Source: an uncultured Pseudomonadota bacterium (lineage in GTDB: Bacteria; Pseudomonadota; Gammaproteobacteria; CAJXQU01). Taken from it: DNA of 64,000 nucleotides. How positions within the stretch are numbered: position 1 is the first letter of the stretch; the number at the start of each line of letters is the position of its first letter. The translations under genes and the position numbers were made by a program. A model generated the notes under the pieces. It made no database searches. It was not told the origin of the DNA and saw nothing but the letters and a program-made list of their open reading frames with translations. Shown piece by piece: positions 1 through 46,363 of this stretch. The stretch spans positions 372,001-436,000 of the forward strand of contig CAJXQU010000001.1 in the NCBI GenBank assembly GCA_913058255.1, written 5' to 3'.

Positions 1-924
1 GAATGCTGACTCAGGATCCGTTTGATACGCACGGTCATAGGCAGACAACAAACTATTATCGACAGCCACTCCACATGGATTTGCATGTTTGACGATGACG
101 CAGGCTGGTTTTTCATCAAATTGTTTAACACATTCAAGCGCAGCATCGGTATCAGCAATATTGTTATAAGAAAGTTCTTTGCCTTGCAGCTGAGTTGCCG
201 TAGAAATATTGGCTTCAGTTTGTTGAGTAGAAACGTAAAAAGCCGCTTGCTGATGTGGGTTTTCACCATAGCGCATCGTTTGGGCTTTTTTGAATTGGGT
301 ATTGAATGTTGTCGGGAAACCTTCAGGTTTTCCATTTTCAACAATCGCCCCTAAATAATTGGCAATCATGCCATCGTAACCAGCTGTGTGTTCAAACGCT
401 TTGGTTGCTAGTTTAAAGCAGCTCTCTTTGCTTATTCCACCTTGAGACTTTAATTCTTCGATAACAGTTTCATAGTCCGAAGGGTTGACAACGATCGCGA
501 CATTGGCGTGATTTTTCGCTGCGGCACGAACCATAGTAGGACCACCGATATCAATATTTTCGATAGCATCCTCTAGTGAGCAATTTGGTTTTGCAACGGT
601 CTCAGCAAATGGATAGAGGTTTACAACGATCAGATCAATAGGGTCGATTCCATGCTCAGCCATTACTTCATCATCTTGTCCACGACGGCCAAGAATGCCA
701 CCATGAATTTTTGGATGCAGTGTTTTCACTCGACCGTCCATCATTTCAGGGAAACCAGTATGTTCCGAAACTTCTTTTACAGCTAAACCTTGATCGGCGA
801 TTAGTTTTGCGGTGCCACCGGTTGATAGTAGTTCAACACCCAACTCGGAAAGTGCTTTTGCTAGCTCTGCTATACCCGTCTTATCAGATACACTGATCAG
901 TGCACGTCGTACATTTATTGTCAT
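1..924 (-). CDS. purH: Bifunctional AICAR transformylase / IMP cyclohydrolase, 3' end cut by window edge
   Basis: Catalyses the last two steps of de novo IMP synthesis in the cytosol. The reverse strand reads from an ATG at 924 through 308 codons without a stop, so about 200 C-terminal residues of a roughly 520-residue protein lie outside the window. The N-terminal MGS-like cyclohydrolase domain carries [16 protein letters not shown] and [11 protein letters not shown]. The transformylase domain begins with [14 protein letters not shown] and has the KHANPCG motif at about residues 279-285, with its catalytic Lys and His. It lies 42 bases downstream of fis on the same strand, so co-transcription with dusB-fis is plausible. 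Confidence 0.97.
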
Positions 925-966
925 GTAATTTAGTCCTGTAAATTATGCTGAAACCAAGGGCTGGTT

Positions 967-1263
967 TCATTTTTCAATATTATACTTCTGTAGTTTTTTT
1001 CGAAGCGTGCCACGGTTTAGTCCGAGCAACTCAGCCGCTTTGGTGACGTTATTATCTGTTTGGGATAAAACAATTTCAAGCAAAGGTCTTTCTATTTCAC
1101 TTAGGACAATATCGTATAAATTGCCTGGAACATGACCTTCAAGATCTTTAAAGTAGGCCTCTAATGATGATTGGATTTGACTGCTAAGCGCGACGTCTCG
1201 ACGATTATCTTTACGTCGCTCACCTTGTCTACGTTCGACAAAACTTTTCTGTGTCTCAATCAT
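967..1263 (-). CDS. fis: DNA-binding protein Fis
   Basis: Nucleoid-associated factor that bends DNA and stimulates growth-phase promoters. The 98-residue product has the Fis C-terminal helix-turn-helix (TKAAELLGLNRGTLRKKL, about residues 74-92). Its N-terminal part is basic and Arg-rich (RRQGERRKDNRR), unlike the enterobacterial beta-hairpin arm. It starts 6 bases after the dusB stop, the conserved dusB-fis operon arrangement of gammaproteobacteria. Length and HTH agree with the family. Confidence 0.95.
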   Translation of the reverse strand: MIETQKSFVERRQGERRKDNRRDVALSSQIQSSLEAYFKDLEGHVPGNLYDIVLSEIERPLLEIVLSQTDNNVTKAAELLGLNRGTLRKKLQKYNIEK

Positions 1264-1269
1264 ATTTGT

Positions 1270-2262
1270 TTATGCGGCCTTGGCGTTGATGGCTTGTCTC
1301 TCAAAAAAATCAATGATGAGTTTTAACTGCGTCTCTATGTTATCAACCCGTGATATTTGCCGCCAGACATTTTTGCTTTCTGATGCGATTTCGGATGGAA
1401 GTTTATCCAAATACCAACGAATATGTTTTCTCGCGATACGAATTCCTTGAAATTCACCGTAAAAAACATAAAGGTTATTCATATGCTCAAGCATTATTTT
1501 TTCTATATCAGAAGAAGACGGAGGTTTGATCAGTTCTTCGGTGTTAAGAAAATGTTTGATCTGATCAAAAATCCAAGGGCTACCTTGAGCGGCACGACCA
1601 ATCATAATTCCATCAGCCCCAGTTAGCTCTAAAACACGTTTTGCTTTTTGTGGGCTAGTGATATCACCATTGGCATAAAGTGGAATATTGATCGCTTGTT
1701 TTATCGAGCGGATGGTTTCATATTCAGCATCACCACGATAAGCGCAGGCACGAGTTCGGCCATGAACCACGATTGATCGAATACCTGATTGTTCTGCAAT
1801 TTTAGCAATGGTGACTCCATTACGATGCTTGGGATCGGTACCCGTACGAATCTTCACCGAGACAGGAACATCGACCGCGTTGACGACAGCTTCAAGAATT
1901 TGCCCGACCAAAATTTCATTTTTTAGTAATGCGGAACCAGCCATAACATTACAGACTTTTTTTGCTGGGCAGCCCATATTAATGTCGATCACTTCGGCTC
2001 CATTGTCGATATTAAAACGAGCAGCGTCAGCCATTGTCTTTGGATCAGAACCTGCGATTTGAACAATTCTTAAACCCGATTCACCACGGTAGTCTATACG
2101 GTTTTTACTTTTGCGGGTATTTCTAAGAGCAGGGTTTGCTGAAACCATTTCAGATGTAGTTGCGTCGGCACCAAAGCGACGACACAAAATGCGAAAAGGG
2201 CGATCCGTGATTCCGGCCATAGGAGCTAGGACTATTTTTGGAAGTTGATTCTCAGTCGACAT
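1270..2262 (-). CDS. dusB: tRNA-dihydrouridine synthase B
   Basis: FMN- and NADPH-dependent enzyme that reduces uridines in the tRNA D-loop. The protein has 330 residues, normal for the family. It starts with the flavin-barrel signature VLAPMAGITDRPFR and has the catalytic Cys at about residue 98 in GCPAKK. Further barrel motifs are VKIRTG, VHGRTR, ANGDI and GADGIMIGRAA. It sits directly upstream of fis, and 5 bases separate it from the DUF3426 protein gene. Confidence 0.96.
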   Translation of the reverse strand: MSTENQLPKIVLAPMAGITDRPFRILCRRFGADATTSEMVSANPALRNTRKSKNRIDYRGESGLRIVQIAGSDPKTMADAARFNIDNGAEVIDINMGCPAKKVCNVMAGSALLKNEILVGQILEAVVNAVDVPVSVKIRTGTDPKHRNGVTIAKIAEQSGIRSIVVHGRTRACAYRGDAEYETIRSIKQAINIPLYANGDITSPQKAKRVLELTGADGIMIGRAAQGSPWIFDQIKHFLNTEELIKPPSSSDIEKIMLEHMNNLYVFYGEFQGIRIARKHIRWYLDKLPSEIASESKNVWRQISRVDNIETQLKLIIDFFERQAINAKAA

Positions 2263-43322: not shown

Positions 43323-44423
43323 GTGACCTCAGCATCCCCGATCTTATTTGTCGATCTAGACAACACGCTTACACGCTCCGATCTTTTTCTTGAGCCGCTA
43401 TTAAAACTACTCAAAAGCGATCCAATGGTTTTGTTTCTTTTACCAAAGTGGTTGTTGCAAGGTCGAGGTTATTTTAAACAGCAATTGTCCGATCGAATTA
43501 GTATCGACGTCACAGAAATTTCTTTTGATGAAGAGGTCAAAGAATATCTAGTCAAGCAACGTCAATCGGGTAGAAAAATAGTGTTAGCAACAGCATCAAA
43601 CCAGGTATTTGCTGATCAAGTTGCAGAGCATTTGGGATTATTTGATCACGTTATCGCCTCATCGGTGGATTTAAATACCAAAGGTAAAAATAAGCTGTCT
43701 GCAATGAAGCGTTATGCAGACGGACAAGATTTTGATTACTTGGGGGATAGCCATGCAGATGTAGATATCTGGGGACAAATCGGCCGAGCGGTTGTCGTTT
43801 CTCCCCAAGCGGGCGTTTTGAAACGACTAGAAAAACATAATATCCCAACAGAATTGATCCATCCCGCCCCGGCCAAAGAAATTTACCTACAAGCCATGCG
43901 ACCACAACATTGGTTAAAAAATCTACTGATTTTCATACCATTGATTTTGACATGTAAGATCTTCAGCATAGCTTCAATCAGCGCAACGATCTTTGCATTT
44001 ATTAGTTTTTGTCTGGTCGCTTCAGCGGGATACATTGTTAATGACCTTCTCGATTTAGAAGCTGATCGCAAACATCCTCAGAAAAAAAACCGACCTATCG
44101 CAGGTGGTATTCTGGCACTATGGAATGTCGCTTTTCTTGCGAAAGGTTTATTACTACTAGGCTTGATCTTAGGCTGTTTAATCTCCTGTAAATTAGCCCT
44201 GTTGTTGTTTGCTTACTTCCTGTTAGTGGTTATTTATTCTTTAAGACTGAAAGATATAGACACGCTAGGAACGATGGCAGTGATCGCTTTTTATACCGCG
44301 CGAATTCTTGCAGGAAGTATTGCAATAGGTTCAACGTTATCAAATGGAATGTTGATTGTAACGATACTGATATTTTTTGGTTGGCAGAAGCTCAAACAGC
44401 GTACTGAGCATTTTACCAACTAG
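43323..44423 (+). CDS. HAD phosphatase fused to a UbiA prenyltransferase, C-terminally short
   Basis: Residues 1 to about 195 form a HAD domain (FVDLDNTLTRSDL, LATASNQ, YLGDSHADVDIW). The UbiA part begins with RPQHWLKNLLIFIPL and has the prenyl-diphosphate motif NDLLDLEADRKHP and NRPIAGG. The second region (YSLRLKDIDTLG, YTARILAGSIAIG) is present, but then the frame ends after ILIFFGWQKLKQRTE at residue 366, where relatives run to about 480. Several membrane helices are therefore missing. GTG start with AAAGGA upstream. May be non-functional. Confidence 0.8.
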   Translation: MTSASPILFVDLDNTLTRSDLFLEPLLKLLKSDPMVLFLLPKWLLQGRGYFKQQLSDRISIDVTEISFDEEVKEYLVKQRQSGRKIVLATASNQVFADQVAEHLGLFDHVIASSVDLNTKGKNKLSAMKRYADGQDFDYLGDSHADVDIWGQIGRAVVVSPQAGVLKRLEKHNIPTELIHPAPAKEIYLQAMRPQHWLKNLLIFIPLILTCKIFSIASISATIFAFISFCLVASAGYIVNDLLDLEADRKHPQKKNRPIAGGILALWNVAFLAKGLLLLGLILGCLISCKLALLLFAYFLLVVIYSLRLKDIDTLGTMAVIAFYTARILAGSIAIGSTLSNGMLIVTILIFFGWQKLKQRTEHFTN

Positions 44424-44574: not shown

Positions 44575-45258
44575 TTAATTTTGTGTGAGATTAGACATTT
44601 TTATCAGAACATTTTTTACAATGCTATCACAGCGTTCGCCAGCAAATTCATGCACAGATAATCCTGCTTTTTCAATATATTTATTTAGCTCTTGTTGTAA
44701 TAATATTTTTGCACGATGATATCGAGTTTTAACGGTAGCTTCTTTTATTTCAAGAATTTCGGCTGTTTCGCGAATACTGCACTGCTCAATTGCACGAAGC
44801 ATAAAAACACTGCGAAATGTATCCGGAAGTTTGTCGATATTATCTTCAATTAGCTTTTTAATCTGTTGATTGGCTAAGTCACTATCTGGTTGGTTAAGCG
44901 GATTGTTCATAGAGTAAAGTTCAATCACAGTTTCAAGTTGTTGATCATCCATAGTTGTCATCCTACTGTTTTTACGATGACGCATAAGAGCCTCATTTTT
45001 TGCTATTCTCGCCAGCCAAGCGGCAAAAGCATTGGTATCATTAAGCGTATGAAGTTGGTTAAAGGCTGTGATGTAAGCCTCTTGCACAGCATCCATCGCT
45101 TCAGCATCATTACGAAGAATGCTCCTAGCAAGACGGAATAACCGTTGATTATGGCGACGCATAATTTCTTCATAAGGGGGCTGACTACCGGTCAGTATTT
45201 GCTGGATCAGTAGTGCATCTGTTACTGGATCATCTTGACTTGCTATCGGAGTGCTCAT
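44575..45258 (-). CDS. ECF-type RNA polymerase sigma factor
   Basis: Sigma-70 family, region 2 (YEEIMRRHNQRLFRLARSILRN, AMDAVQEAYITAFNQL, FAAWLARIAKNEALMRHRK) and region 4 (LPDTFRSVFMLRAIEQCSIRETAEILEIKEATVKTRYHRAKILL). 227 residues, with about 45 extra residues after region 4 that contain one Cys. No anti-sigma factor is encoded next to it. Last gene of an operon with the cytochrome c and the ferritin-like protein, 21 bases after the cytochrome. Confidence 0.94.
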   Translation of the reverse strand: MSTPIASQDDPVTDALLIQQILTGSQPPYEEIMRRHNQRLFRLARSILRNDAEAMDAVQEAYITAFNQLHTLNDTNAFAAWLARIAKNEALMRHRKNSRMTTMDDQQLETVIELYSMNNPLNQPDSDLANQQIKKLIEDNIDKLPDTFRSVFMLRAIEQCSIRETAEILEIKEATVKTRYHRAKILLQQELNKYIEKAGLSVHEFAGERCDSIVKNVLIKMSNLTQN

Positions 45259-45279
45259 AATTGCAGTTTTATTCGTTGT

Positions 45280-45690
45280 TTAAGGACAGATATCTGAAGA
45301 CTCAGATGCACTTTTTAAGTAAGCGATCAAATCTCTACGTTTATTTTCATCTTTAATTCCAGCAAATCCCATTGTTGTTCCTGGCACCACTGTTAATGGT
45401 GACTCAAGAAAATGATCCAAGGTATCTGCATCCCAAATTATAGATGACTTTTGCATCGCTGCAGAATATTCAAAGTCTGAGACACTGCCTGCTTTTCGTC
45501 CGAAAAGACCACAGTGCCGAGGCCCTGTTCGATCACGTTCAAGTGAATGACAAGCAAGACAACGAGCATAAACGCGCTGACCCGCTTCAGGGTTTCCTTT
45601 TGTATTATCTGCGCTAACAACGAGAGAAAGTATAAAAAACACTGACATAAGAGTCAGTGCTTTTTTTATATCATTTGTTTTTATTCTCAT
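45280..45690 (-). CDS. Periplasmic class I cytochrome c
   Basis: Signal peptide (about 10-27), heme site CLACH (Cys44, Cys47, His48), and the eukaryote/alphaproteobacterial-like opening RTGPRHCGLFGRKAGS, then the axial Met region PGTTMGFAGI and DLIAYLKS. 136 residues. Placed 8 bases after the ferritin-like gene and 21 before the sigma factor, so probably an electron-transfer partner in the same stress or redox response. Confidence 0.93.
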   Translation of the reverse strand: MRIKTNDIKKALTLMSVFFILSLVVSADNTKGNPEAGQRVYARCLACHSLERDRTGPRHCGLFGRKAGSVSDFEYSAAMQKSSIIWDADTLDHFLESPLTVVPGTTMGFAGIKDENKRRDLIAYLKSASESSDICP

Positions 45691-45698
45691 GACACGAG

Positions 45699-46298
45699 TT
45701 ATGAGAAGAAGGCCTCAGGCACAGGATCAAGCCCAAGCGCATTACGTAAGATAGCCCAATGCATAGCCTCGTCTGCCAGAATGCTAGCCGCAGCAGCGGA
45801 TAAGTCACGATTATCAAAAATTGGAATTGCACCCGCATAAGCACTTACCGCTCCTCGCTCGAGACCTGCAGCAAATTCTAGGACGTCAGATTGTTGTTTT
45901 AGTTTTTCAATAGGAAAGTTATACGCTGTTTTTGCTTCCACCGGATTGCCACCCAAGCTATTGACGGCACTCGAAAGAGCATCGATATGTTCCTTATGAT
46001 GACCTTGAAATTTCACCGCAACTTTCAAAGTTCCGGGTTCTAGCAAACCACTCTCAGCACCCAGCTGGTAAGCGGCAACGGCTTCATGTTCAGCACTGAT
46101 AGCCGTATTAAGAATACGAACATCTTGATCTGTTGAAGTACTGCTTTCTGCATTTGCAACTTGAGATGTGCAGCCGCTTAATAAGGCAACAGCCGTTGCT
46201 GAAAAAGTAGCTGTGCCTGCTTGCATCAGAAACTTTCTACGTGCTTTGATAGCGGTTTCTTCAAGTAGGCTAGGGTAGTTAGGTTTTAAAGTACTCAT
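45699..46298 (-). CDS. Ferritin-like domain protein with Tat/lipoprotein signal
   Basis: The N-terminus has a twin-arginine signal (ARRKFLMQAGTA, Arg20-Arg21) and a lipobox-like LLSGC (Cys43). The mature part is a Ferritin_2-type four-helix bundle: LNTAISAEHEAVAAYQLG, FQGHHKEHIDAL, AAGLERGAVSAYAGAIP and LADEAMHWAILRNALG supply Glu/His metal ligands. 199 residues, ribosome site GGAGAA. Predicted periplasmic iron or peroxide-handling protein. Confidence 0.9.
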   Translation of the reverse strand: MSTLKPNYPSLLEETAIKARRKFLMQAGTATFSATAVALLSGCTSQVANAESSTSTDQDVRILNTAISAEHEAVAAYQLGAESGLLEPGTLKVAVKFQGHHKEHIDALSSAVNSLGGNPVEAKTAYNFPIEKLKQQSDVLEFAAGLERGAVSAYAGAIPIFDNRDLSAAAASILADEAMHWAILRNALGLDPVPEAFFS

Positions 46299-46333: not shown

Positions 46334-46363
46334 AAAAGATGCATGAGCAGGAAAAAGGTTCCC
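46334..46363 (-). promoter_or_regulatory. Candidate ECF sigma promoter for the ferritin-cytochrome-sigma operon
   Basis: On the minus strand GGGAACC (46363-46357) is a classical ECF -35 element. It is followed after about 16 bases by GCATCTTTT as possible -10. The site lies 36-65 bases before the first start codon, suggesting autoregulation by the operon's own sigma factor. By-eye prediction. Confidence 0.45.

Follow-up and report, generated by a model that had tools for sequence, protein, structure and literature searches.

The window analyzed here, a 64,000-nucleotide stretch of gammaproteobacterial DNA, carries a compact three-gene operon on its minus strand. The first gene (45699–46298) encodes a 199-residue ferritin-like protein (Ferritin_2/DUF4439; Pfam PF13668, E=1.2e-33), a putative Tat-type lipoprotein. 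It is followed by a gene (45280–45690) for a 136-residue class I c-type cytochrome, identified by PF00034 (E=3.2e-05) and by its PDB relatives, and by a gene (44575–45258) for a 227-residue ECF sigma factor of the ECF29 type. The open reading frames confirm the gene order (ferritin-like, cytochrome c, sigma) and the gaps of 8 and 21 bases given in the original prediction. A 3'-truncated UbiA-family gene on the plus strand (43323–44423) converges on the operon. As also predicted, the neighboring genes and their Pfam assignments contain no anti-sigma gene adjoining the trio. This claim stands at the locus, but the prediction had not recognized that the absence was already known for group ECF29, which lacks a candidate anti-sigma factor (PMC6180224, PMC8999054).

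The sigma factor contains sigma-70 regions 2 and 4 (Pfam) and scores above the curated cut-off of the NCBIfam equivalog PRK11922/NF008888 (255.9 bits vs 204). RpoE8 of S. meliloti, which is encoded on NC_003078, scores 323 bits against NF008888, and the rpoE8 promoter, as published, is found without any difference in this pSymB sequence. The two sigma factors share 41% identity over 197 residues, with the C-terminal tail included. By its sequence, the window sigma factor belongs to the RpoE8/ECF29 family, an ECF29 membership that is based on RpoE8 (ECF29 in PMC6180224) and the promoter and not on the 2021 ECF29 model. In 2018, no ECF29 member had been studied in detail to the knowledge of the authors who assigned the S. 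meliloti rpoE8-SMb20593-amcY locus to the group; they called the control of ECF29 a mystery and found no RpoE8 target (PMC6180224). NF008888 sigma factors are present in 26 of 398 Pseudomonadota genomes and in 9 of the 369 genomes of a class sample, and none of 55 related genomes, two of the same genus included, contains a member above the cut-off. The sole match in a single-sequence search of genome contigs was a distant sigma factor, and nothing beyond distant sigma homology linked the protein to phages. Two other assignments were rejected: EcfQ of Bradyrhizobium (class 33) as a characterized relative, because its neighbors bll1027 and bll1029 and its class differ, and group ECF26, because its S. 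meliloti members have anti-sigma factors.

An ECF29-type promoter is located directly upstream of the operon. The published ECF29 motif consists of GGGAAC and GCATCCAA as the -35 and -10 elements (PMC6180224). On the minus strand of the window, an exact GGGAAC-N15-GCATC (46338–46363; -35 at 46363–46358 and -10 at 46342–46338) lies ~40 nucleotides upstream of the start codon of the ferritin-like gene. The bases that trail GCATC are TTT instead of CAA, and the rest is exact. The same promoter element is present at S. meliloti rpoE8. The exact N15 match is a single copy in the whole 2.78 Mb genome, and a second match, which has an N16 spacer, gives no indication of being a promoter. Matches with one mismatch are about as frequent as in a reversed control (20, the exact one included, vs 15), and a wider regulon was not found by the genome motif scan. 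Across 46 family loci, 33 exact motifs were observed vs 0.13 expected, and none was found in 34 loci of non-family sigma factors. Nearly all of these motifs (31/33) precede sigma (17), DUF4142 (13) or ferritin-like (1) genes. In four other ferritin-first operons (L074–L077), comparable elements occupy this position before the ferritin gene, in some cases with a single substitution or with a spacer of 16 bases, and no clear ECF29 motif was seen in the beta-proteobacterial ferritin-like/cytochrome c operons. A promoter of the sigma factor's own group precedes the first gene, with no second exact N15 copy elsewhere in the genome. The sigma factor therefore probably activates the operon that encodes it, in a self-contained loop, which supports the control by an own sigma factor that had been predicted.

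A hairpin followed by a U-run (45634–45665, minus strand) is located within the start of the cytochrome gene, in the part that encodes the signal peptide. The hairpin has a 13-pair stem (-17 kcal/mol, z=-5.7) and could represent a partial terminator. No equivalent was found in the closest homologous operon (L075). An attenuator that limits cytochrome and sigma expression is possible at this site. The three genes may therefore be expressed unequally, with the ferritin-like gene uncoupled from the sigma gene.

The C-terminal tail of the sigma factor (44575–44682, minus strand) comprises ~35 residues with the motif G-x-x-C (here AGERCD), and the Cys210 codon is located at 44629–44631. Gly207 and Cys210 are invariant in the tails of 46/46 family sigma factors, and the motif occurs in 0/37 other sigma factors; the 46 members were picked by a tail-spanning profile, so that the presence of the tail is partly built in but the invariance of the Cys residue is not. 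The original prediction of a C-terminal extension with one Cys residue holds for the tail, in which C210 is the single Cys, but the protein also has Cys160. In many family members, the tail Cys is the only Cys of the protein, which excludes an internal disulfide for those members. Single-sequence AF2 models (mean pLDDT 54.8 and 40.0) are too poor for placing the tail. A review counts ECF29 among the groups whose regulatory extensions act by a mechanism that has not been studied (PMC8999054). When RpoE8 was overproduced 126-fold, no target was activated, despite a perfect motif before SMb20593 (PMC6180224). This silence fits a sigma factor that requires a signal, although it could also reflect a weak RpoE8 or targets located elsewhere. 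Together with the invariant tail, it makes a signal-dependent tail plausible, with Cys210 as a candidate sensor residue.

Alternatively, the operon could be controlled by transcription only. The sigma factor would then be active whenever made, its level would be set by another regulator, and the tail and its Cys residue would have a structural role, for example in folding or in binding of core RNA polymerase. Such control was put forward for the orphan Bradyrhizobium sigma factor EcfQ, which belongs to ECF class 33 and has conserved promoter motifs (PMC3420878), and a buried structural Cys can be invariant as well. However, a sigma factor of this kind is at odds with the failure of overproduced RpoE8 alone to activate a target, and the position of the ECF29 motif, ahead of the sigma gene or of the leading gene in its set, points to autoregulation. 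A purely structural tail is disfavored by its invariance outside the domains that are conserved in other ECF sigma factors. We consider this alternative unlikely and retain a tail that responds to a signal as the preferred reading.

The ferritin-like protein contains an N-terminal twin-arginine motif (ARRKFLM) followed by a lipobox (LLSGC), both recognized by eye only. The lipobox is not general, since several ferritin-like relatives have twin arginines but no Cys. In an alignment, the ligands E, HxxH, E and DExxH are invariant in 12/12 ferritin-like relatives; a carboxylate/His set of this kind would be expected to bind a pair of metal ions. The cytochrome c exhibits an N-terminal heme motif (CLACH) and a C-terminal axial Met in PGTTM, both conserved in relatives, and its N-terminus resembles a Sec-type signal by eye. 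Among solved structures, mitochondrial-type cytochromes c are its closest relatives (E=1.7e-24). The subclass to which this cytochrome c belongs is marked by two extra Cys residues, one in RHCGL and one near the C-terminus, which probably form a disulfide; both are missing from L083.

The best inference from these features is that the ferritin-like protein would be a periplasmic oxidoreductase with the cytochrome as its electron partner. A different activity is brought up by its best PDB relative, tardigrade RvFeMP-1 (8KCE, E=5.4e-6), since phosphatase activity has been demonstrated for RvFeMP-1 and for Deinococcus DRB0118 (PMC11616004). The protein could accordingly be a metabolite phosphatase of this type, or another non-redox enzyme, to which the cytochrome would not be a partner. 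The metal ligands differ, however: of the FeMP ligands E51, E90, H93, E132, D135 and D162, E90 is aligned to His and D135 to Ala, and the FeMP assignment was rejected. Moreover, the ferritin-like and cytochrome c genes recur together independently of the sigma gene and are replaced as a pair, which argues that they are partners. A non-redox enzyme is therefore quite improbable, and the oxidoreductase assignment is maintained. The neighborhoods of relatives include NnrS, nirK and cbb3 oxidase genes, and ECF29 motifs precede truncated globin and folE (GTP cyclohydrolase I) genes (L087:1770-1844; L064:3190-3247; Phyllobacterium and Mesorhizobium plasmids). These associations weakly favor a role in NO or respiratory redox stress over one in iron storage.

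Partner genes of the family were scanned with small profiles within 1.5 kb of the sigma gene, a range that farther partners can escape. The 46 sigma loci contain DUF4142 and cupredoxin genes in 26 cases, ferritin-like and cytochrome c genes in 6, a ferritin-like gene alone in 3 and neither in 11, with no mixed pairs. In annotated relatives (Sinorhizobium, Mesorhizobium, Shinella, Rhizobium and Caballeronia), the sigma gene lies beside DUF4142 and cupredoxin genes. This usual ECF29 context, which is typical but not defining, is absent from the window, where Ferritin_2 and cytochrome c genes are found instead. The three genes thus represent a new gene combination in a known, almost unstudied sigma group. 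In the sigma tree, the six members with ferritin-like and cytochrome c partners are located in two separate places, and the AU test rejects their grouping as one clade (p=3.6e-5). Gene order and promoter site are matched in the closest operon (G522/L075), with 75% (sigma), 80% (ferritin-like) and 67% (cytochrome c) identity. Profile comparison found no homology between Ferritin_2 and DUF4142 (probability 12.5%), and the swap is therefore treated as analogous, not homologous. The search for the three-gene order in other genomes, which the original prediction had proposed, recovered the trio or its analogue in many, in line with a conserved module.

The ferritin-like gene is not confined to ECF29 loci. 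It pairs with a cytochrome c gene without an adjacent ECF29 sigma gene at five loci (L083, L117, L118, L121 and L122), and it lies beside a different ECF sigma gene and an RskA-type anti-sigma gene at four others (L082, L119, L126 and L128). At L118, a 312-residue ECF sigma-like ORF (361–1299, minus strand) that extends ~110 residues past region 4 is divergent to the ferritin-like/cytochrome c pair. An ECF29-family sigma factor is encoded more often in genomes that carry the ferritin-like gene than in others (Fisher test: phylum sample, p=0.004; class sample, p=1e-7; uncorrected for kinship). The positions of the ferritin-like gene beside ECF29 or other ECF genes indicate that this effector has been repeatedly placed next to ECF sigma genes, with the ECF29 version being the one without an anti-sigma factor. 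A dedicated anti-sigma factor encoded at a distant locus is conceivable, given that the RskA-type neighbors make such control of the effector possible, but it is very improbable because group ECF29 lacks a candidate (PMC6180224, PMC8999054) and the two families searched in the own genome, RskA_C and zf-HC2, gave no match. Likewise, no anti-sigma partner was detected in the family neighborhoods whose genes were identified (Pfam on part of the neighbors).

The flanking UbiA-family gene provides information on the origin of the operon. It encodes a UbiA/HAD fusion (PRK08238) of 366 residues, compared with 473 and 486 residues in two congeners, and lacks ~110 C-terminal residues of the congeners. 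The break adjoins the ECF29 operon, and a different gene follows the UbiA gene in the congeners. The cut gene and the different follower place the operon at a rearranged junction. The operon was probably gained by the lineage, although in G+C content it does not stand out from the window (41.3% vs 41.8%).

Taken together, the trio most likely forms one self-activating redox-protection operon. The explanation that we favor, with somewhat more than even confidence, is a self-contained autoregulated ECF29 operon in which the sigma factor is held by its tail and released by a redox signal to express an exported ferritin-like/cytochrome c pair. Basal sigma factor would be made but kept inactive by the tail with the invariant Cys210, which would take the place of an anti-sigma factor. 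The sigma factor would be released when a redox or electrophile signal, such as peroxide, NO or hypochlorite, acts on the tail, and it would then direct transcription of the operon. In the periplasm, the ferritin-like protein, once exported, would convert an oxidant or metal at its carboxylate/His dinuclear site and exchange electrons with the cytochrome c, which would connect it with the respiratory chain. DUF4142 and cupredoxin would do an equal job in most relatives. More tentatively, and with the balance of probability against it, ECF29 sigma factors in general could be one-component thiol sensors, in which the single invariant Cys of the short tail directly senses a reactive species, replaces an anti-sigma factor and drives an exported metal-protein/electron-carrier pair that is swapped as a unit.

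That the partners are exchanged in matched pairs hints at a function common to DUF4142 and these exported ferritin-like proteins, both of which lack an assigned role in the ECF29 setting. With apparently the only exact promoter of its genome, the three-gene operon constitutes a minimal test bed that combines one sigma factor, one promoter, a candidate sensor residue, a putative enzyme and a carrier. If the Cys residue is the sensor, the sigma factor would be a very small redox switch free of an anti-sigma factor and usable as an orthogonal genetic part.

Among known systems, CorE/CorE2 (ECF238) and ECF41 also lack an anti-sigma factor, and their activity is controlled by a C-terminal extension (PMC8999054). 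The extension is a Cys-rich domain plus CXC in CorE and a SnoaL domain in ECF41, whereas the window sigma factor has its short tail with a single Cys; for the latter, the tail is conserved, and comparable tail-based regulation is plausible. RvFeMP-1 and DRB0118 (PMC11616004) share the ferritin-like four-helix domain and dinuclear metal site but use the ligands E90 and D135 (here His and Ala), and no cytochrome partner has been described for them. The Acidithiobacillus plasmid locus L082 and loci L119, L126 and L128 contain a homologous Tat-type ferritin-like protein (about 48–58%) beside an ECF sigma gene; unlike the window operon, they have a different ECF group and an anti-sigma factor, with no cytochrome c detected alongside. 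Variovorax and Cupriavidus loci (NZ_LR594664, NZ_CP138514, NZ_CP138516 and NZ_AP025172) encode ferritin-like proteins and cytochromes c with 62–63% and 55–63% identity, respectively. An ECF29-family sigma gene adjoins the pair in Variovorax, as here, but not in Cupriavidus, and these loci differ from the window in a sigma gene that comes first and in having no clear ECF29 motif. The S. meliloti rpoE8-SMb20593-amcY locus differs in its DUF4142 and amicyanin-like cupredoxin partners, its leading sigma gene and its two promoter motifs, but it has in common with the window operon the sigma family, the promoter, the lack of an anti-sigma factor and the combination of an exported partner with a periplasmic electron carrier.
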